A DNA stretch of 45,295 nt, taken from assembly GCA_001780955.1 (NCBI GenBank), contig MFJR01000007.1, forward strand, positions 449,482 to 494,776, read 5' to 3'. The stretch is from Candidatus Gottesmanbacteria bacterium RIFCSPLOWO2_01_FULL_39_12b. Lineage in GTDB: Bacteria > Patescibacteriota > Microgenomatia > 2-02-FULL-39-11. The notes beneath the pieces were generated by a model. The model saw only the letters and a list, made by a program, of their open reading frames with translations, made no database searches and had not been told where the DNA came from. Both the position numbers and the translations under genes were made by a program. Shown here one piece after another: positions 3,133 to 35,084 of this stretch (position 1 is its first letter; every line of letters begins with the position of its first letter).

Positions 3133-3183
3133 AAAATAATTATCTGATTTCTAGAATATAATATAAATTTAACTGAAAATCAA

Positions 3184-3206
3184 TCCGCCAGTTGGCGGAT
3201 GGCGGA
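3184..3206. repeat. REP-like palindrome, copy 1
   Basis: TCCGCCAGTTGGCGGA (3184-3199) is one base different from the 16-bp palindrome found four more times in this window, and is followed by an extra TGGCGGA half. It sits in the 82-base spacer between the processing protease and htrA. Confidence 0.75.
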
Positions 3207-5474: not shown

Positions 5475-6026
5475 TTAAAATGGTATGTCATCCGGAGTAA
5501 TATCTTCGTTTTTAACTTCAGAAGAAGTTACGACTTCCTCATCTTTCTTTTTTTCACTAAGGTCTTCTTTTACCGAAAGTTTCGGCGGTGATTTTTTGGT
5601 TGAGGTAGATTTATCCGTCAAATCGGAATCATCCGCCAGCTGGCGGACCTCAGCCGGTTTCGATTCTGAACTTTCTTCTTTAATTACTCTTTTGGAATCT
5701 AAGATGATCATATCTTCTATCACGATTTCTGTTGAACTTCGCTGCCCTCCATCCTGACCAATCCAGCTATGAGTTGCCAGCCTTCCCTCTACGTATACTT
5801 TCCTTCCTTTTGCCAAAAGCTGGGAACATAATTCACCTAGTTTATTCCAGGCTACAATCCGGTGAAATTCTGTTTCTTCCTTTGTTTCGCCCGTTTGAGT
5901 CGTCCAGCTTCTATTTGTAGCTAAACCAAAGGTACAGACCGCAGTGCCCGCGGGCGTGAACCGTAACTCAGGATCTCGTGTCAGGTTGCCTATTAATGTA
6001 ACTTTATTCAAAGAACGTGCAGACAT
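5475..6026 (-). CDS. ssb: Single-stranded DNA-binding protein
   Basis: Coats single-stranded DNA in replication and repair, and recruits partners through its tail. Residues 1-110 are the OB fold (NKVTLIGNLTRDPELRFTPAG, FHRIVAWNKLGELCSQLLAKG, VYVEGRLATHSW). The acidic tail ends in D-D-I-P-F, the partner-binding tip. The linker around residues 127-131 (V-R-Q-L-A-D) is encoded by a copy of the 16-bp palindromic repeat, so a repeat has been taken into the flexible linker in frame. It is preceded by an AAAGGAG Shine-Dalgarno site, unlike the first gene of the operon. Confidence 0.95.
   Translation of the reverse strand: MSARSLNKVTLIGNLTRDPELRFTPAGTAVCTFGLATNRSWTTQTGETKEETEFHRIVAWNKLGELCSQLLAKGRKVYVEGRLATHSWIGQDGGQRSSTEIVIEDMIILDSKRVIKEESSESKPAEVRQLADDSDLTDKSTSTKKSPPKLSVKEDLSEKKKDEEVVTSSEVKNEDITPDDIPF
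5632..5647. repeat. REP-like palindrome, copy 2, inside ssb
   Basis: Perfect palindrome TCCGCCAGCTGGCGGA. Read on the minus strand in the ssb frame it encodes V-R-Q-L-A-D in the disordered linker. Confidence 0.85.
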
Positions 6027-8652: not shown

Positions 8653-8778
8653 GAAAACTCGGGACTATCGTCATTGCGATCCCGACTCAGTCGGAACAAG
8701 CAATCCCGTTCGGGCATACTGCTATTCTGCGGGATCGCCACGCTCGTTCCTCGCTCGCGATGACATTTATCATGAGTT
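8653..8778. repeat. Paired inverted hairpin repeat (REPIN-like)
   Basis: Two related hairpin units face each other: 8670-8708 begins GTCATTGCGA and ends GCAATCCCG; 8730-8764 begins CGGGATCGC and ends TCGCGATGAC. The units are inverted copies around a 21-base centre, flanked by GAAAACTC and GAGTTTC. GTCATTGCGA-type units are a widespread class of bacterial dispersed repeat. ORFs across it are not genes. Confidence 0.75.
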
Positions 8779-8855: not shown

Positions 8856-10316
8856 TCACCTTCGGCTGATTTTTGTTCCCTCTGGAGTATCTTCTATAGT
8901 AAAACCTGATTTTTCAATTTGCTGCCTGATCTGATCTCCTTCATCCCATTTCTTTCCCTGTCTTAATTTTTCTCTTTTCTCAACTAGTTCTTTTATCTCT
9001 TCAGATACTTTTGACTTTTCACTTTTCACTTTTAACTTATTCAAGTCTAATCCCAAAACTTCATCAAACAAAAGAATCAAATCGTATTTATCCCCGGGAG
9101 GAATATTACTTTTGACCACCTCCCATAAAACTGCCAAAGCGGAAGGTATATTTAAATCGTTATTTATAGAGTCGGTAAATTCTTGCCTGAATTTATTTAC
9201 TTTTTTTAATTTTTCTTCAGAAAGATTAGTTCTTGTTGTTATTTGATCCGCCAGCTGGCGGATTTGCGCTTGAAGATTTTTATACGCTGTTTGGGCTCCT
9301 TTCAAAGATTCCCAGGTAAAGTTCATCGACTTGCGGTAAGAAGAAGTCAAAAACAGATACCGAAGAACCATTGGAGAAAATCCCTTTTTCTCGATATCGT
9401 AGACCCGATAAAAGTTACCAAGGGACTTACTCATCTTTTCTCCTTCAACCAGTAAATGATCCGCATGGAGCCAATACTTGACGAAACTTTTGCCCGTTGC
9501 TGCCTCGCTTTGGGCAATTTCGTTGGTGTGATGGATGGGAATATGATCGACTCCTCCGGTATGGATATCGAAAGTCTCACTCAAGTACTCCATACTCATG
9601 GCAGAACACTCTATGTGCCAGCCGGGAAATCCTCTACCCCATCGACTATTCCACTCCATTTGACGTTGCTTTGCAACGTCATCCTGAGCGGAGTCGAAGG
9701 ATCTTCCCCCGGAATACGAAAATTTCCAGAGGGCAAAATCAGTGGAGTGTTTTTTACCGGAAACGACCTCGACTCTGGCTCCGGCTTTGAGAGATTTCTG
9801 CAATTTATCAAATGGTTGCCCGGTTAACTTGCCGTAATCTGATAATTTAGAAGTGTCAAAATAAACCCCATCGGTAATCTTATAGGTAAAACCCTTTTTT
9901 TCCAAAAGTTCGATGATTCGAATCATCGAACTAATGTGATCTGTGGCGCGACAGATAATTTCAGGCTTTTTTATATTTAATTTAACAAGCATTTCCATAA
10001 AATCATCTGTATAAAACTTGGCGATCTCCCAAACCGATTTTTTTTCTCGTCTTGCCCCCTTTTCCATCTTATCTTCCCCGGAGTCAGAATCTGAAGTCAG
10101 ATGACCAACGTCGGTAATGTTCATGACTCTTTTGACATCAAACCCGTTAAACTCCAAAACCCGCTGTAAAATATCGGCAAAAATAAAAGTCCGGGCATGT
10201 CCGATGTGCGCAAAATCATAGACGGTTGGACCGCAGGAGTAAAAACATACAATAGGAGGATTAAGAGGTTTAAAATCTTCGGTTTTTTTAGTTAAGGTAT
10301 TATATAATCGCAACAT
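8856..10316 (-). CDS. cysS: Cysteinyl-tRNA synthetase carrying two in-frame repeat insertions
   Basis: Charges tRNA-Cys in the cytoplasm. Class I signatures: C-G-P-T-V-Y-D at 28-34 with a zinc cysteine, HIGH at 37-40, and the KMSKS loop at 294-298 ([11 protein letters not shown]). WHIECSAMS (233-241) and [10 protein letters not shown] are also present. The length is 486, near normal, but two stretches are not from the enzyme. Residues about 203-221 ([18 protein letters not shown] region) interrupt the usual ALWK...W-x-S-x-W-G-x-G-x-P-G-W-H run and are encoded by a dispersed hairpin repeat. Residues 352-358 (I-R-Q-L-A-D-Q) are encoded by the 16-bp palindrome in the helical C-terminal part. Both keep the frame. 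The gene starts 2 bases after the preceding hypothetical gene. Confidence 0.93.
9247..9262. repeat. REP-like palindrome, copy 3, inside cysS
   Basis: TCCGCCAGCTGGCGGA, extended to an 18-bp perfect palindrome by the flanking A and T. It encodes R-Q-L-A-D on the minus strand. Confidence 0.85.
9662..9705. repeat. Dispersed hairpin repeat inside cysS (SFDSAQDD element)
   Basis: GACGTTGC (9662-9669) and GCAACGTC (9673-9680) form a perfect 8-bp stem with a TTT loop, followed by CATCCTGAGCGGAGTCGAAG. The latter is a well-known dispersed bacterial repeat whose translation gives S-F-D-S-A-Q-D-D. Here it is read through in frame within the synthetase. Confidence 0.8.
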
Positions 10317-10318
10317 TT

Positions 10319-10810
10319 TCAGCCTATTTTAACATTTTGTTTAGTCTCAAAACCGGAAGAAGGTGTCCTTTTTTGAGGCCCAAGTTTCCCTTGGATCGGT
10401 TTGCTGGTTGGAGTTGCCAAAGGCCGCGGTTGTTGCTTTCGCGCTTCAACAGCCTGAGCTTTCTTCTGTTCCTCTTCCTGAAGTAGTACTTCATATGGCC
10501 TGGCAGCTGTCGGTGTTTGAGGTAACATCATATGCTTAGGCGTTGTTTGCCGCAATACTTTCCGTGTCTCTTCTAACTCTTTCTGATCGGAAGCTCCTAA
10601 CTCTTCCTCTTTCTTCTTTAACTGTTCTTTGGATAAATTGGGCCCGAGATTTTTGAGATACTTACTGAATTCATCTTCACTTTGTAATGATTTGGATCCG
10701 ATTGCCTGTTCAATAAGTTTTCCCGGACTGACCGTACTGGCAACCTGTCTTGCTGAATCTTTGGCCGCTTCAATACTACCCGTGATGATTTTTTTCAGTT
10801 TGCTCGACAT
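10319..10810 (-). CDS. Hypothetical basic, low-complexity protein
   Basis: 163 residues, no membrane segment. An N-terminal amphipathic part (LKKIITGSIEAAKDSARQVA, PGKLIEQAIG) is followed by a charged coiled-coil-like stretch (LSKEQLKKKEEELGASDQKE) and a Gln/Lys/Pro-rich tail. I do not recognise a family with confidence; similar lineage-specific proteins occur in Microgenomates. It lies between the DUF59 gene and cysS with 2 bases to cysS, so it is probably co-transcribed. Its start is preceded by three 9-bp repeats instead of a clear ribosome-binding site. Confidence 0.7.
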   Translation of the reverse strand: MSSKLKKIITGSIEAAKDSARQVASTVSPGKLIEQAIGSKSLQSEDEFSKYLKNLGPNLSKEQLKKKEEELGASDQKELEETRKVLRQTTPKHMMLPQTPTAARPYEVLLQEEEQKKAQAVEARKQQPRPLATPTSKPIQGKLGPQKRTPSSGFETKQNVKIG

Positions 10811-10837
10811 AAGTTACCTAAGTTACTTAAGTTACTT
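10811..10837. repeat. Three tandem 9-bp repeats
   Basis: AAGTTACCT, AAGTTACTT, AAGTTACTT in a row, directly before the start codon of the hypothetical gene on the minus strand. They are the same unit (other strand) as the repeat at the end of prfA. Confidence 0.7.
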
Positions 10838-10848
10838 AAATAATAAAA

Positions 10849-22454: not shown

Positions 22455-23333
22455 TTAGTTTTTCTTTAATACTTCAATAATCTCCCGAAGGGTCAACTTT
22501 GTCGGTTTACTTTCCGGATTTTTAATCGAGCCGTTTAAGAGCATTTTCCGGCTGGCATGCAAAAACCAAGTCGCTTCGCCATCTTTTTTCTTATATATAT
22601 TGTAACACGAAGTTAAATCCACAGCTGAATCTGGCATCGCTTTTATCCTGACGTAATCTTTTTTGGGGTCTTTCCTTACCGCAAGTATATATCCTTGTCT
22701 TTGAGCTACCCTTACCACTTCGTCGTTAACGGTATCGACTCCTATTCCTTTTCCCCATTTAGTCTTAAACTCTACTCCGTTTTCTTTCAATTCGTTTTCA
22801 GCCCAGACTTTATTCTGAAAAGATTTATAGATACCGTCAAGATTAAGCATGCCCAAATTAAGAATTTTTATATTGTCTTCGGAATATAGCAGTTTCCAGC
22901 CGTCAAGAATGGCCACCAACCCAAAATCATAGAAATCGGCCATGGGATTGGGGAAAGAACTTTCCCGGAAATGATCGATGTCATTGACTACATCCACCAA
23001 ACGTTCCAAGGCCTCATCTGGAAAACTATGATTTTTCTTCGTTCTCTGTTTTATGTTCCGCCGGCTGGCGGATGTTGTCTGTTCTCTGATGTACTCCATA
23101 GTTCTTTTTGCCGCACAGGTGTCCTCATCCGTCTGATGATGATCAAGCATCCCCATCCCGGTGTCAACATGCAGGATTTCCGGATCATGATCAGCCGGTT
23201 CATTATTAAGAGTTTTTCCCGCCGGGACGAATTTTACCTCAGCCTCTTTCCAGTCAGGCAAAAATCGCATCAAGAGCCAAACTGAGGTAATGGCATCAAC
23301 ATCGGGAGCAAGATGAGTAATGATAGTTTTCAT
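22455..23333 (-). CDS. DHH/MYG1-like phosphoesterase family protein
   Basis: 292 residues from the ATG at 23333 (a TTG 15 bases earlier overlaps proS). ITHLAPDVDAITSVWLLMRFL and LHVDTGMGMLDHHQ are the metal-binding D-x-D and D-H-H motifs seen in DHH and MYG1-type hydrolases; VDVVNDIDHFR carries another likely metal-site Asp. Residues about 88-92 (S-A-S-R-R) are encoded by a variant of the 16-bp palindrome. The C-terminal half (WFLHASRKMLLNGS) is not assigned. MYG1 is a 3'-5' RNA exonuclease in eukaryotes; the reaction here is unknown. Confidence 0.65.
   Translation of the reverse strand: MKTIITHLAPDVDAITSVWLLMRFLPDWKEAEVKFVPAGKTLNNEPADHDPEILHVDTGMGMLDHHQTDEDTCAAKRTMEYIREQTTSASRRNIKQRTKKNHSFPDEALERLVDVVNDIDHFRESSFPNPMADFYDFGLVAILDGWKLLYSEDNIKILNLGMLNLDGIYKSFQNKVWAENELKENGVEFKTKWGKGIGVDTVNDEVVRVAQRQGYILAVRKDPKKDYVRIKAMPDSAVDLTSCYNIYKKKDGEATWFLHASRKMLLNGSIKNPESKPTKLTLREIIEVLKKN
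23057..23072. repeat. REP-like palindrome, copy 4, inside the DHH-like gene
   Basis: TCCGCCGGCTGGCGGA, one base different from the consensus palindrome. It is in frame within the coding region. Confidence 0.75.
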
Positions 23334-23344
23334 GTGTTTATCAA

Positions 23345-24784
23345 TCAATACGCCTGGGCAAAAAGCCAGCGATGGATAGCCTGTTTACCGCAATAAATAC
23401 ATTTTCCTTTCTCGTCTTTGGTTTCAAGGGGCAAGACGCGAGTAGAAGCTTTCGTTTCGTCTTTAATCTTCTTCTCACATAGAGCATCTTCACACCACAT
23501 TGCTTTGATAAACCCGCGGGTAGTACTCATAATTTTTTTGAATTCTTCATAAGAATTAACCGTATGCGTATTTTCTTCCGTGAATTTCTTTTGCTTTAAA
23601 AACATCTCTTTTTGTATTTCGTCTAATAATTTTATTATTTTATCCGGCAGATGACGATTCTCATTTTTAATGTTTAATTTTTCATTTTTATCTCTTCGAA
23701 ATACAGTCAATTCTCCGCTTTTAATCTCTTTCTCTCCGACTTCAATACGAACCGGAACTCCCTTTAACTCCCACTCATTAAATTTCCACCCTACTGTCTT
23801 TTCTTCTCTGTCATCTATTTTTACTCGGATACCAACCTCCTCCAACTCCGTTTTTAACTGATCACAAAATCGCGCTATTGCACTATTTTGTGATATGGGG
23901 ATTATGATAACCTGAACCGGAGCAATTCTTGGCGGAAGTACTAAACCCTGATCATCTCCGTGAGCCATAATTAAAGCACCGATCACGCGAGTAGTCTCTG
24001 CCCAACTGGTTTGCCATACATATTGTCGTTCACCTTTTTTATCCAAATATTGTATATTGAACGCCCTGGCAAAATTATCTCCCAGATGATGAGAAGTACC
24101 CATCTGAATCACTTTGCCATCCGGCATCAATGACTCCAATGAATAAGTAATGGCAGCTCCGGGAAACTTTTCGCTCTGGGATTTACGGCCTATAACCACA
24201 GGAATTGCCAATAGCTCTTCGTCAAATACCCGATAAATCTCGAGTATCTTACGGGCAAAATTATCAGCGTCTTCAAAAGTGGCATGAGCGGTATGTCCTT
24301 CCTGCCATAAAAATTCAGTGGTTCGCAAAAAAAGATATGTCCTTTTTTCCCATCTCACAACATTGTTCCAGATGTTTAAAAGCAGCGGCAAATCCCTCCA
24401 GCTCTCAATCCATCGGGAATAGGAATCGTACATGATGGTTTCTGAGGTTGGTCTGACAACCAGCGGTTCGGCTAATTTCTCTCCTCCTGCGATAGTCACT
24501 ACCGCCATTTGGGGTGAAAATCCTTCAACATGCTCCTTTTCCTTTTTCAAAAAACTGTTGGGAATAAAAAGCGGGAAATAGGCATTTTGGACACCGATTT
24601 CTTTGAATTTCTTATCCAGGTAATTTTGAATTATCTCCCAGACAGCGTAACCATTGGGCCTTATGATCATGCAACCTTTGACCGGAGAATAATCGGCCAT
24701 TTCAGACTTCAAAATGACATCCGTATACCAGCGGTCTGAATCAACTGACTTTTTGACTATTTGTTTTTTTTGGAAACCAGTCAT
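23345..24784 (-). CDS. proS: Prolyl-tRNA synthetase, archaeal/eukaryotic type
   Basis: Charges tRNA-Pro. Class II motifs: YSPVKGCMIIRPNGYAVWE, VVRPTSETIMYDSYSRW (motif 2 region), FLRTTEFLWQEGHTAHAT, and GTSHHLGDNFARAF. It lacks the large editing insertion of the common bacterial enzyme and has the C-terminal zinc domain with WCEDALCEKKI and CIYCGKQAI, ending in A-Y as in archaeal enzymes; 479 residues is the usual size of that type. It overlaps the DHH-like gene's possible start and follows csaA by 60 bases. A TATAAT at 24807-24802 may give an extra promoter downstream of the T-box. Confidence 0.95.
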   Translation of the reverse strand: MTGFQKKQIVKKSVDSDRWYTDVILKSEMADYSPVKGCMIIRPNGYAVWEIIQNYLDKKFKEIGVQNAYFPLFIPNSFLKKEKEHVEGFSPQMAVVTIAGGEKLAEPLVVRPTSETIMYDSYSRWIESWRDLPLLLNIWNNVVRWEKRTYLFLRTTEFLWQEGHTAHATFEDADNFARKILEIYRVFDEELLAIPVVIGRKSQSEKFPGAAITYSLESLMPDGKVIQMGTSHHLGDNFARAFNIQYLDKKGERQYVWQTSWAETTRVIGALIMAHGDDQGLVLPPRIAPVQVIIIPISQNSAIARFCDQLKTELEEVGIRVKIDDREEKTVGWKFNEWELKGVPVRIEVGEKEIKSGELTVFRRDKNEKLNIKNENRHLPDKIIKLLDEIQKEMFLKQKKFTEENTHTVNSYEEFKKIMSTTRGFIKAMWCEDALCEKKIKDETKASTRVLPLETKDEKGKCIYCGKQAIHRWLFAQAY

Positions 24785-25171: not shown

Positions 25172-25974
25172 AATTCCCCTATTTTATCATACCCTTTTTT
25201 AACTGATTCGGAAAAGAGCTTAGAAAATCCCCCTTCCTCCATACTCTTTAACACCTCTTCCGTAATTCCGCCTTTTGTGGCAACGGCAGAAGTTAATTTC
25301 TCTGGAGATTCACCCGTTTCCGACAAATGCTTTACAGTTCCGGTAAATGTGTTCAGTACGATCTTTGACACATCGTCTTCGTTTAACCCATACGACTTTG
25401 CGATCTTCTCCAAATTCTTCATAAAATAGGCAACGTATCCGATACCGCAGCCTGAGATCATACTTAACTTATCCAGGGTTTTTTCATCCTTACACTCAAT
25501 AATTAGCCCGAGCGGCTTTAAAAGTGACTTAACCAAAGTTTTATCTTGAACGGTTAAATAATCTCCCACCCAGCCAACTACACCCAACCCGTAAGCAACC
25601 GGAATATTGGGTATTACTTTGACCAGCTTAATCTCCTTTGCCGAAAAATATTTATGAAGTAAGTCAAAAGTTACACCGGCTGCGATTGAAATAATCAACG
25701 CGTCAGATTTTAGGTGAGTTTTAATTCCTCCAGCTACTTTTTCAACAACTTTAGGCCGGACGCCGATAAAAACTATTTCGGCATTTTTAACCGCTTCGAT
25801 ATTATTAGTGGTTGTCTTAAGACCATACTTCTTCCCCAGATCATTAAATCTCTCTAAATGGGGACCGGAAAGAATTATTTTGTCTTTGTCAACGGTTTTT
25901 GCTTTCAACAGGCCGTCAATAATTGCATGACTGATATGACCAACACCGATAAAAGTGATGTTTTTATTTATCAT
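25168..25974 (-). CDS. proC: Pyrroline-5-carboxylate reductase
   Basis: Last step of proline synthesis, NAD(P)H-dependent. ITFIGVGHISHAIIDGLL is the Rossmann start, VFIGVRPKVVEKVAG and IISIAAGVTFDLL follow, VKVIPNIPVAYGLGVVGW corresponds to the R-x-M-P-N motif, and SGCGIGYVAYFMKNLE and TKGGITEEVLKSMEEGG are the C-terminal helical signatures. 268 residues is normal. The leader carries a T-box and an intrinsic terminator, so expression should rise when the sensed tRNA is uncharged. No proA or proB is in the window. Confidence 0.94.
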   Translation of the reverse strand: MINKNITFIGVGHISHAIIDGLLKAKTVDKDKIILSGPHLERFNDLGKKYGLKTTTNNIEAVKNAEIVFIGVRPKVVEKVAGGIKTHLKSDALIISIAAGVTFDLLHKYFSAKEIKLVKVIPNIPVAYGLGVVGWVGDYLTVQDKTLVKSLLKPLGLIIECKDEKTLDKLSMISGCGIGYVAYFMKNLEKIAKSYGLNEDDVSKIVLNTFTGTVKHLSETGESPEKLTSAVATKGGITEEVLKSMEEGGFSKLFSESVKKGYDKIGEL

Positions 25975-26025
25975 ACTTACAGAACTTTTTTTATTTTACC
26001 AAATTCGAGGTCTATTTGTCTTTAC

Positions 26026-26262
26026 AAAAAAAACCTCATCTTTATCCCGAACATTCTTGTTCGTGGACAAGGACGAGATTTCGTCGTGGTACCACCTTGC
26101 TTTTCCGCCAGCTGGCGGACTTAATTTATCGAGCTCCGTTTATAACGACACTCGTGCTTTCTTTTTACGGTTTCGCCTCCGTCATACTTGTCGTATGCAA
26201 CTCATCTGGCGGTAAAGAACGTTTAACGTTCAAACCAGACTAGTAACGCTTTTATTTATCTT
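26026..26262 (-). promoter_or_regulatory. T-box riboswitch with intrinsic terminator, upstream of proC
   Basis: On the minus strand AGGTGGTACCACG (26097-26085) closely matches the T-box core (consensus AGGGTGGNACCGCG), with UGGU to pair with the tRNA acceptor end. Then comes a terminator: GGACAAGGACGAG (26065-26077, plus strand) can pair with CTCATCTTTATCC (26035-26047), capped by an inner CGAACA/TGTTCG hairpin, and followed by eight U (26033-26026). The antiterminator CAAGG...CCUUG (from 26099) uses bases shared with the terminator. Upstream hairpins are GAACG/CGTTC, CATAC/GTATG and CGAG/CTCG; the stem I region seems short. A CCG proline codon at 26212-26210 is a candidate specifier, but I cannot prove it. 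A 16-bp palindromic repeat lies between the last stem and the T-box core. Confidence 0.82.
26104..26119. repeat. REP-like palindrome, copy 5, inside the T-box leader
   Basis: Perfect TCCGCCAGCTGGCGGA, placed four bases upstream of the antiterminator in the transcript. It would fold into its own hairpin. Confidence 0.85.
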
Positions 26263-30992: not shown

Positions 30993-31021
30993 ATGACAAA
31001 TTGGGGTGGATCATTTATACT
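30993..31021 (+). promoter_or_regulatory. Promoter of the T4SS-type ATPase, leaderless arrangement
   Basis: ATGACA (30993-30998), 17-base spacer, TATACT (31016-31021), which ends 6 bases before the ATG at 31028. Confidence 0.55.
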
Positions 31022-31027
31022 TTTATT

Positions 31028-33211
31028 ATGGCAAGTGAAGAAAAAGTAATACTTGAAGTCAGGACGCCAAAGACGGCTGAGGAAACGCCCGAGAGTATGG
31101 CGCAGGTATTTGCCGCCCTTTTTTCCGGAGGCCACATCCCCCACTGGAAAAGACTGTGGATCAAGGTAAGAACGCTTTCTTTTGAAATCGCCAACTACAA
31201 CCAGACGGTCCATTTCTATACGGTGGTACCGTCTTCCTTCAAAACATTTATGGAAAGCCAGCTGACCAGCCAGTACCCTAAAATTTTGATTTCCCAAATC
31301 CCTGAATATCTTTCTAATATCACCAAAAAACCTTATCTGGCCATCGGTAATTTACAACTGGCCAATGCGTTTTATTACCCGATTAAATCTTACAAGGAAT
31401 TTAAAGAAATTGATCCGCTTTCTTCTATCCTCGGTGTCTTGTCTAAATTTAGCGTTAACGAAACCGGACTTATCCAGATCGTGATCGAACCGCCCCATTT
31501 CAACTGGCAGGGAATGGTGGAAAGAATGGTTACCCGGGGCATGCCGGACCCCACACCGCGCGCCCCTGATAGGACTAAACAATTTCCCCACGCAAGGATG
31601 ATTGAGGAAAAAATAAATCAAACCGGATTTCGGGCCTACGTGCGGCTTTTAATCGGAGCTAATGATAACAAACAGGCGCTATCTCTGATGTTTAATCTGG
31701 CTGGAGCATTTGGGGCCTTTGCTCAAGGTGAAGGTAACAGGCTGATTCTCAAACGGCCAAGATTTATTTTTAAAAAGATCACTTTGGATAAAATCATCAA
31801 ACGCGAGAAAAATCATTTCCCCCGCCATCAGATTTTAAATACCATGGAACTGGCAACGCTCTGGCATCCTCCGACTCAACTTCTTTCCGGTATCAAAAAT
31901 ATTTCCTGGGGAAGAAGCCTGGTCGGTGAACCGCCTCAAAATCTACCCATCGCCCAGGAATTAACCGACGAAGAAAAATCCCATATCAACTTCTTTGCCA
32001 AGGCAGAATTTAAGAATTCACTGACTACTTTTGGGATCAAAAAAGAAGACCGTAGAAAACATATGTATATCATCGGTAAAACCGGAACCGGAAAAACCAC
32101 CCTGATTGCTAACATGGCCATAAACGATATGAGAAACCGGGAAGGAGTGGCGGTAATCGACCCGCACGGAGATTTGTCTGAAATACTTTTGAATTATGTG
32201 CCATCATACCGAATTAACGACGTTGTCTACCTTGAGCCTTTTAATCTTGATTATCCTTTCTGGCTTAACGTTTTGGAAGTAAAAAATCCGGTACACAAGG
32301 AGCTGGTATCATCCGGAATTGTGGCCATATTTTCCAAACTCTATTCGCACTCCTGGGGGCCGAGACTGGAATATATTTTGCGTAACGTAATCCTGACGCT
32401 CTTGGAATATCCCAACGCAACACTGACTATGGTACCGGATTTACTAGCTGACCAGAATTTCCGGCAGGACGTTTTAACCAAAGTCAAAGACAAAATACTG
32501 CAGAATTTTTGGCATAATGAATACGATAAAATGCATCCCAGACTCAAAAGTGAGGCAATTGCTCCAATACAAAACAAAGTCGGCCAGTTTGTCGCTTCCC
32601 CCACCATCCGCGAAATCATCGGTCATCCTACTTCAACAATTGATCTGGAAGAAATCATGAATAACGGGAAAATTTTAATACTCAACCTTTCCCAGGGAAA
32701 ATTGGGCGAGGATAATGCGGCACTCCTCGGAGCCATGTTTATCACCAAGATGCAGCTTGCAGCCATGAACAGGGTTAATATACCGGAAGAAACGAGACGC
32801 GATTTTTATCTGTATGTTGACGAGTTTCAGAACTTTGCCACCACTTCCTTCATAAAAATACTCTCTGAGGCGAGGAAATACCGGCTTGATCTTATCCTCG
32901 CGAATCAATACGTCGCTCAAGTGGAAGAAGACGTACAAAAAGCGATTTTTGGCAATGCAGGCTCTTTAATTTCATTTGTCATCGGCGCCCAAGACGCTCA
33001 CCACCTTTCCCGCGAGTTTGGCCAGTGGTATAAGGAGGAGGATCTGGTCAATCTGGGAAGCTACCAAATCGTCATTAAACTGGCTATAGACAATCTGACT
33101 TCACTTCCCTTTCACGCATTGACTTTACCCTTGCCCAAGTCAAAGAATCTTAATCGGGAAAAAGTAATCACGGTATCAAGGGAGAGGTATACCAAAAAGG
33201 TCAAAGTTTAA
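31028..33211 (+). CDS. Type IV secretion/conjugation-type ATPase (TraD/VirD4 or VirB4-like)
   Basis: 727 residues from the ATG at 31028, chosen because of the -10 box 6 bases upstream. The first 340 residues have no membrane helices and resemble the N-terminal part of CPR-typical conjugative-ATPase-like proteins. The motor domain has Walker A GKTGTGKT (350-357), AVIDPHGDLSE (375-385), Walker B FYLYVDEFQNF (593-603) and the SEARKYRLDLILANQYV segment, as in VirD4/TraG coupling proteins and HerA-like motors. No other T4SS gene is nearby, so conjugation is not established; DNA uptake or surface-appendage assembly are alternatives. A remnant of a second copy of its tail lies at 35028-35084. Confidence 0.8.
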   Translation: MASEEKVILEVRTPKTAEETPESMAQVFAALFSGGHIPHWKRLWIKVRTLSFEIANYNQTVHFYTVVPSSFKTFMESQLTSQYPKILISQIPEYLSNITKKPYLAIGNLQLANAFYYPIKSYKEFKEIDPLSSILGVLSKFSVNETGLIQIVIEPPHFNWQGMVERMVTRGMPDPTPRAPDRTKQFPHARMIEEKINQTGFRAYVRLLIGANDNKQALSLMFNLAGAFGAFAQGEGNRLILKRPRFIFKKITLDKIIKREKNHFPRHQILNTMELATLWHPPTQLLSGIKNISWGRSLVGEPPQNLPIAQELTDEEKSHINFFAKAEFKNSLTTFGIKKEDRRKHMYIIGKTGTGKTTLIANMAINDMRNREGVAVIDPHGDLSEILLNYVPSYRINDVVYLEPFNLDYPFWLNVLEVKNPVHKELVSSGIVAIFSKLYSHSWGPRLEYILRNVILTLLEYPNATLTMVPDLLADQNFRQDVLTKVKDKILQNFWHNEYDKMHPRLKSEAIAPIQNKVGQFVASPTIREIIGHPTSTIDLEEIMNNGKILILNLSQGKLGEDNAALLGAMFITKMQLAAMNRVNIPEETRRDFYLYVDEFQNFATTSFIKILSEARKYRLDLILANQYVAQVEEDVQKAIFGNAGSLISFVIGAQDAHHLSREFGQWYKEEDLVNLGSYQIVIKLAIDNLTSLPFHALTLPLPKSKNLNREKVITVSRERYTKKVKV

Positions 33212-34268: not shown

Positions 34269-34937
34269 ATGCCGTACCGCCATACGCTTATTGTTCCCAA
34301 CCAGATCTATCACGTCTTTAACCGTTCTATCGCAAGACAACCTTGCTTTCTCAACTCTCGTGACTATGAACGATTTCTCAATGTAATAGATTATTATCGA
34401 TTTCAAAAACCATCACTCCGATTTTCTCATTTTAGCAGACTACCCTTTGAACTGCGTACCGCGTATGAAAACAACCTCAAGCAAAAGGGTGTCAAACAAG
34501 TAGATATATTTGCCTACTGTATCATGCCTAATCATATCCATTTTTTACTCAGAGAATGCACACCCAAAGGAATTGCTACCTTCATGAAAAATATTCAAGA
34601 GAGCTATGCAAAATACTACAACATAAAACGTGAACGTACAGGAAGTCTTTTCCAATCAATGTTCAGAGCAGTCAGAATTGAGACAGACGATCAACTCCTT
34701 CATGTAAGCCGCTATATCCATCTCAATCCCTATACTTCATTCATAGTAAAAACAAAAGAAGAACTGCTCATCTACCCTTGGACATCTCTTTCTGAATACC
34801 TTACTCACTCATCGATAACAACCAGAGAAATCATTCTTCAGCACTTTTCAACCGTAGAAAAATTCAAAATATTTACTCTCGATCAAGCAGATTACCAAAG
34901 AGAACTTGAGGAAATCAAACATCTCATCTTTGAGTAG
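34269..34937 (+). CDS. REP-associated tyrosine transposase (RAYT, Y1/HUH family)
   Basis: Single-strand DNA transposase of the TnpA-REP branch of the IS200/IS605 family. 222 residues with the HUH pair in YCIMPNHIHFLL (His89, His91) and the nucleophile candidate Tyr113 in ESYAKYYN, followed by RERTGSLFQSMFRAV and SRYIHLNPY, which are RAYT hallmarks. The C-terminal part after residue 165 is a DNA-binding helix region. Hairpins flank the gene at 34212-34228 and 34951-34962. RAYTs are thought to mobilise REP-type palindromes; at least five copies of one palindrome are scattered in this window. Confidence 0.88.
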   Translation: MPYRHTLIVPNQIYHVFNRSIARQPCFLNSRDYERFLNVIDYYRFQKPSLRFSHFSRLPFELRTAYENNLKQKGVKQVDIFAYCIMPNHIHFLLRECTPKGIATFMKNIQESYAKYYNIKRERTGSLFQSMFRAVRIETDDQLLHVSRYIHLNPYTSFIVKTKEELLIYPWTSLSEYLTHSSITTREIILQHFSTVEKFKIFTLDQADYQRELEEIKHLIFE

Positions 34938-34993: not shown

Positions 34994-35027
34994 AAAGTAC
35001 AGCACTCTTCCCAAATCCATAAATTAA

Positions 35028-35084
35028 AATAAGGAGAAGGTGATAAAAGTGTCGAGGGAGAGGTATACAAAGAAAGTCAGGTAA
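35028..35084 (+). pseudogene. Remnant of a second copy of the T4SS-ATPase C-terminus
   Basis: NKEKVIKVSRERYTKKVR followed by TAA aligns with the last residues of the ATPase at 31028-33211 (NREKVITVSRERYTKKVK), 15 of 18 identical. The codons differ at several silent positions, so the copy is not fresh. There is a stop just upstream, so nothing more of the gene is left. The 3' end overlaps the doc gene on the other strand. Confidence 0.75.

Follow-up and report, generated by a model that had tools for sequence, protein, structure and literature searches.

Why does an essential enzyme carry two different repeats inside its coding sequence? The question is raised by the cysteinyl-tRNA synthetase (CysRS) gene in a 45,295-nucleotide stretch of DNA (the window) from Candidatus Gottesmanbacteria bacterium RIFCSPLOWO2_01_FULL_39_12b. 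The host genome (G000) is a metagenome assembly of 1.27 Mb with 38% GC that is 84% complete. An earlier note on this DNA had described two in-frame insertions in the gene, the peptide SFDSAQDD and an RQLAD palindrome.

Repeats read through in an intact CysRS

The cysS gene (8856..10316, minus strand) is an intact open frame for a cysteine--tRNA ligase of 486 amino acids. In an NCBIfam profile search, TIGR00435 (cysS) spans residues 2-485 with 473.3 bits against a cut-off of 340, and Pfam PF01406 matches as well. The catalytic signatures HIGH (37-40) and KMSKS (294-298) are kept. The zinc ligands of CysRS, C28, C237, H262 and E266, are present and, like K294, M295, K297 and S298, invariant across a 19-sequence alignment. 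An AF2 model with these 19 sequences (mean pLDDT 87.9, pTM 0.82) supersedes a poor first model with 4 sequences (pLDDT 48). It displays the normal CysRS fold, the top PDB matches being 8qhp, 1u0b, 3sp1 and 1li5. Judged by its sequence, this is a real gene for a bacterial cysteine--tRNA ligase with all catalytic motifs. Its nearest named relatives are from Gottesmanbacteria MAGs. Since cysS of the window is the sole CysRS match in the 84%-complete genome, the tolerance of the repeats is not explained by a spare copy. In five family relatives (G002, G004, G003, G008 and G007), a second CysRS-like protein of about 400 amino acids was seen (L038-L042, respectively). It has 36-40% identity to residues 2-408, is without the C-terminal part and could be a CysRS paralogue or an MshC-type ligase.

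The SFDSAQDD peptide had been described as taken in between ALWK and the W-G-x-G-x-P-G-W-H motif, close to the active site. That it was taken in is borne out, and the closeness to the active site holds along the sequence. Insert 1 comprises residues 203-216 (14 amino acids; 9669..9710, minus strand) and is absent from most relatives. Its loop is 12 amino acids (36 nt) longer than in most of the 13 aligned family relatives: from ALWK to RQMEW there are about 7 residues in most of them (e.g. LTPKGVK) versus 19 in the host CysRS. The sequences of solved CysRS have a gap here. Residues 203-215 have a pLDDT below 50 in the 19-sequence model, i.e. the loop is predicted to be disordered, and along the sequence the peptide lies about 22 residues before the zinc ligand C237. 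It is encoded by a REP-like element, GATCCTTCGACTCCGCTCAGGATGAC (9678..9703, minus strand), read as (R)SFDSAQDD. This element is not due to chance (0 expected in shuffles of the window), and the host genome contains four copies at 3 mismatches or fewer, versus none of the reversed control. Another of the host's copies is likewise in frame, as FDSAQDK.

Five further genomes of the class also have copies, either exact or with 1 mismatch; in two of these, from different genera, the element is in frame in UvrA-like proteins. In these proteins (L155 of G055 and L156 of G125), whose UvrA-like identity was read from the sequence without a profile, it occupies the same place, and the opposite strand is translated, into VILSEVEGS and VILSGVEGS. 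At the DNA level, a short hairpin, GACGTTGC-TTT-GCAACGTC (9662..9680), joins the CysRS element to the conserved RQMEW codons. The 49-nt segment folds as single-stranded DNA at -10.3 kcal/mol (z -2.9), mostly through this hairpin; the insert 1 core itself is a weak hairpin with a 5-bp stem (-1.4 kcal/mol, z 0.14).

The history of insert 1 can be followed into another genus of the family (G005), where the same element sits at the same CysRS codon with 24 extra nucleotides in its middle. The CysRS tree alone did not resolve the placement of the two genomes. A concatenation of CysRS with 13 other genes (5484 columns, with uneven gene coverage) supports G000 and G005 against the rest (98.6/94), so that insert 1 may have been inherited once. 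However, the element is identical at 31 of 32 positions and the whole cysS gene at 68% of nucleotides, which argues against a simple old inheritance. Two further relatives (G010 and G014) have long CysRS insertions of unrelated sequence within a few residues of the insert 1 site; this loop is thus a tolerant spot in the family.

Other repeat-like sequence was observed in and near cysS genes. Directly after EDKME, the CysRS of two other genera (L029 of G004, L036 of G014) both contain an insert LASRRSGK, which is encoded by a GC-rich repeat-like stretch and differs from the insert of the host. Just downstream of cysS in the window, 8660-8770 is a mosaic of imperfect inverted repeats with GTCATTGCGATCCCGAC...GTCGGGA-type arms and the end CGCGATGACA, a further REP-like family.

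The second repeat is the perfect palindrome ATCCGCCAGCTGGCGGAT (9246..9263), read as I-RQLAD at residues 352-357; it too is not due to chance (0 expected in window shuffles). Its assignment to the C-terminal helices holds, as both structure models, with 4 and with 19 sequences, place RQLAD at the end of helix 335-358. Its description as an insertion is only half right. Among the relatives that have the motifs, the distance from NFT to LSEEK is 33 amino acids in L021 and 35 in L025 and L026, compared to 33 in the host. A lengthening insertion is rejected on these lengths, and with a net length change of about zero the palindrome took over existing CysRS positions. The claim of two different dispersed repeats read in frame within an intact CysRS is therefore confirmed, but alignment to relatives reveals a true insertion for SFDSAQDD only. 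Similarly, the idea that both would fall on surface loops agrees with the model for insert 1, in its predicted disordered loop, and not for RQLAD, which is in a helix and forms no inserted loop.

A third repeat of the same gene, (ACTTTTC)5.1 (9007..9043, minus strand; TRF), had been overlooked. It is read as part of an 11-residue stretch, and residues 431-435 have a pLDDT below 50 in the 19-sequence model. At this site, the sequence of relatives is either plain or made up of different short repeats; G012 and G005 have such repetitive stretches.

The palindrome across genes and genomes

The framing around one gene proved too narrow, as the palindrome of CysRS is also found in about 30 further genes of the host. 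As the 16-bp loopless palindrome TCCGCCAGCTGGCGGA, it is the top repeat of the genome, with 32 exact copies, about 50 when variants are included and none of the reversed sequence. The most over-represented 12-mer of the genome is CGCCAGCTGGCG, with 37 sites (74 over both strands) versus 0.08 expected. In total, some 33 genes carry the palindrome and all three reading frames are used, yielding SASWR, RQLAD or PPAGG. With genes called simply as longest ORFs, 33 of 43 sites lie in ORFs of at least 150 amino acids, compared to 85% expected from coverage (P 0.13). Neither a depletion in genes nor a frame preference was detected for these 43 sites. The 16-mer has a stop codon in no frame, and the CysRS cassettes have none in the frames used.

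The palindrome hosts above the NCBIfam cut-off include GatB, SerRS, NadA, NadB, SecF, FolC, SSB and a 6-phosphogluconate dehydrogenase. Mevalonate kinase, PolX and ribosomal protein L1 match slightly below the cut-off, and RNase H- and glutamate dehydrogenase-type proteins match below it. Going by sequence and relatives, GltX, UvrD and a DegT-type aminotransferase are also hosts. Within the window, the palindrome is read as RQLAD in the tail of the single-stranded DNA-binding protein (5631..5648, in the gene at 5475-6026, minus strand). An intergenic copy with one change lies at 3183..3200, and a variant at 23056..23073 is read as SASRR in a 297-amino-acid protein (22455-23348, minus strand) that has no NCBIfam match. 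A further copy (26103..26120) falls in a short ORF (25955-26215) that may well not be a real gene. Other over-represented palindromic words of the genome belong to the AGGTCTGACCCT, TAAGTTACTTAA and CCGATTAAATCGG families, and a TAAGTTACT repeat was seen in the window at 1938-1967 and 10809-10838.

Of 138 genomes sampled from the class (one genome per species), 54 contain the identical 16-mer. Copy numbers are patchy among related genomes and range from 0 to 47. Other families of the phylum contain it as well, with up to 22 copies, and the reversed control is absent from every genome. With the same repeats in dozens of core genes and across the phylum, the CysRS case reflects a general habit and no single-gene quirk. 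The exact palindrome was also seen in 49 stretches of viral contigs (IMG/VR, L290-L338), which could be vehicles, or the match could be due to chance in GC-rich phages.

Empty and filled sites and the origin of the elements

Sites with and without the palindrome were compared between relatives. NadA and GltX are exactly 4 amino acids longer than their counterparts without it; the DegT-type aminotransferase is also 4 longer, and PolX is 4 longer against one relative (L213). Between two species of one genus (G071 and G116), three comparisons each gave a difference of exactly 12 nt. At four sites with cleanly aligned flanks, AATT, ATGT, GACA and TAAG stand opposite the 16-mer. The net change is thus +12 nt in NadA, GltX, the DegT-type gene and the three same-genus comparisons, versus zero in CysRS and GatB; the latter can be read as +12 beside -12. 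Other palindrome sites differ by +21, +24 or more and have neighboring tandem repeats. In SerRS, PPAGG is found at the same site in G000 and G013. At an identical position of the DegT-type gene, the host has the palindrome and G012 a CysRS-type cassette, TCCTTCGACTTCGCTCAGGA, indicating that the two repeat kinds of CysRS can occupy one site. Both the palindrome and this cassette start with TCC and end with GGA.

Complementary arms of at least 5 bp flank 35 of 83 sites versus 13.9 by shuffling (reached in 0 of 400 shuffles), and other repeats have the palindrome nested in their hairpin loops. At 15 of 43 sites, compared to about 3%, the two flanks share a direct repeat of 3 nt or more. An adjacent target-site duplication was considered, but the direct repeats of GltX (CAA-AATT-CAA) and Nnr already exist in the empty site and are thus no proof of target duplication. 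At the protein level, the sites fall in variable loops where relatives have inserts of unrelated sequence.

From these observations, it is likely that small dispersed repeat cassettes landed in frame at tolerated places of CysRS and other genes. The first cassette, the REP-like element with core TCCTTCGACTCCGCTCAGGA, would have entered the disordered loop that is now 12 amino acids longer than usual. The second, the 16-bp palindrome, would have come to lie at a variable helix end. It would typically replace about 4 nt by 16, and with a net gain of 12 nt and no stop the gene would survive, encoding a slightly longer, decorated protein. The elements are most likely small mobile or copyable palindromes that are favored at hairpin loops or repetitive targets. 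A net change by a multiple of three, with no stop added, would let them persist in genes, the multiple of three being either a rule of the mechanism or the outcome of later selection.

The repeat status, the in-frame reading beside intact motifs, the recurrence in core genes and genomes and the recurrent 12-nt difference are observed. Presumably the elements were disseminated as mobile DNA or by copying; their absence from most relatives suggests this direction of change. Copying may proceed via hairpin or single-stranded DNA, and the elements seem to be nearly neutral to the host protein. Against this explanation stand the lack of net gain at the CysRS palindrome and GatB, the sites that differ by +21, +24 or more, the weak hairpin of the insert 1 core, the near-identity of the element between G000 and G005 in a much more divergent gene and the lack of a linked transposase. 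A bolder version can be put forward only tentatively: an enzyme or replication process of Patescibacteria might write palindromes in a frame-preserving manner, with a fixed 16-bp palindrome taking the place of about 4 nt, in many cases those of a hairpin loop, at +12 nt each time. Coding DNA could then be invaded at low cost, and core proteins would go on being remodeled across the phylum.

A REPtron-like system, in which RAYT-like Y1 transposases of the same genome would mobilize the elements, appears unlikely. Hairpin-forming palindromes are typical RAYT substrates (PMC3733652), and the host genome has six PF01797 genes, with matches in 33 of 40 relatives. One lies in the window (34269..34937, plus strand) and resembles a RAYT-like Y1/HuH transposase (NF047646 REP_Tyr_transpos, 50.9 bits, below the cut-off of 80). 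However, none of the six is flanked by elements, the nearest copies being 4-28 kb away, and over 40 genomes the number of Y1 genes does not correlate with that of palindrome copies (Spearman 0.19, P 0.25). Furthermore, G009 has 13 palindrome copies and no detected Y1 match, and the GTAG tag was not found at the palindrome. Around the gene in the window, another duplication was observed. A 736-amino-acid gene (31001-33211) has a Walker-type ATPase sequence, and its last 70 nt (33134-33203) recur 1.9 kb further on, at 35010-35079, with 71% identity. A 292-amino-acid gene and the RAYT-like gene lie in between, as if inserted with duplication of the tail, to judge from the arrangement.

A selected or mutationally favored, HIP1-like DNA motif that was formed in place by codon substitutions is an improbable source of the palindrome. 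Such a motif would agree with the unchanged length at the CysRS site and GatB, with the lack of detectable depletion in genes or frame preference and with the identical 16-mer across a phylum. It does not fit the many other sites that differ by exactly 12 nt, same-genus pairs among them, nor the nesting in hairpin loops of other repeats or the patchy copy numbers among related genomes.

A positively selected function of the inserted peptides, such as tuning CysRS activity or tRNA binding, is very improbable. It would be suggested by G005, where a related element sits at the identical codon and is more conserved than the rest of the gene, and by PPAGG at the same SerRS site in G000 and G013. 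In contrast, all three palindrome frames are equally used in unrelated proteins, insert 1 is predicted to be disordered and is dispensed with by most relatives, and the sites are variable loops with unrelated inserts. Finally, stitching of repeats into the gene by the assembler or a binning error is extremely improbable: the genome is an 84%-complete metagenome assembly and repeats can break assemblies, but these elements are short enough for any read to span, the frames are open in dozens of genes, and the same kind of insertions occurs in other genomes, among them G005 with its related element in CysRS and G013 with PPAGG in SerRS.

Comparison with known palindromic elements

Most known cases of palindromes in coding sequence come from Rickettsia or are REPs within genes of a limited number of bacteria. 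Here, a letter-identical 16-bp palindrome occurs across a phylum and in genes for aminoacyl-tRNA synthetases, NAD biosynthesis and protein translocation, which shows that essential enzymes of streamlined genomes can tolerate peptides derived from repeats. In annotation and modeling of such proteins, peptides such as VILSxVEGS should be treated as repeat-derived. Since a single genus offers sites both with and without the palindrome, the origin of the elements is directly testable. A search of the open-access literature returned work on RPE, REP and MITE, and nothing on these elements in Patescibacteria.

HIP1 (GCGATCGC) of cyanobacteria is a perfect loopless palindrome that is over-represented, mostly in genes and clade-wide. 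The 16-bp palindrome is likewise loopless, strongly over-represented, mostly in genes and shared across its clade. It differs in its length (16 versus 8 bp), its number (dozens of copies versus thousands) and the gain of 12 nt at many sites. The GTAG REPs and REPINs with RAYT are also small palindromes in many copies, with RAYT-like genes in the genome. Unlike in those systems, the GTAG tag is absent here and the RAYT-like genes are neither flanked by elements nor correlated with copy number.

The CGTC-tagged REPs (dRS3, RPE-4/RPE-6 superfamily) are without a dedicated transposase and were reported in tRNA synthetase and uvrA genes; the REPs of that survey are mainly intergenic (Di Nocera 2013, PMC3733652). 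Like these, insert 1 has CGTC-AT at one end and the complementary AT at the stem base (CGTCATCC...GGATC). In contrast, the CysRS copy lacks the 8-9-bp stem and the 4-5-nt loop, and other genomic copies mostly have TGTC or AGTC.

The Rickettsia palindromic elements, as summarized in PMC10969869 from Ogata 2000 and 2002, are dispersed palindromic repeats in frame in unrelated, often essential genes, with a unit of about 100-150 bp and a conserved peptide. The palindrome described here is also dispersed and in frame in unrelated protein genes, giving decorated proteins. However, unit lengths here are 16 bp and about 26-40 bp, the three reading frames of the 16-bp unit give three different peptides, and the hosts are Patescibacteria. 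As the RPE unit size and peptide, the stem of the CGTC REPs and the flanking of RAYT genes are all lacking, the elements are filed as neither RPE nor REP. They work like RPE and intragenic REPs, with no tested mobilizer linked to them.
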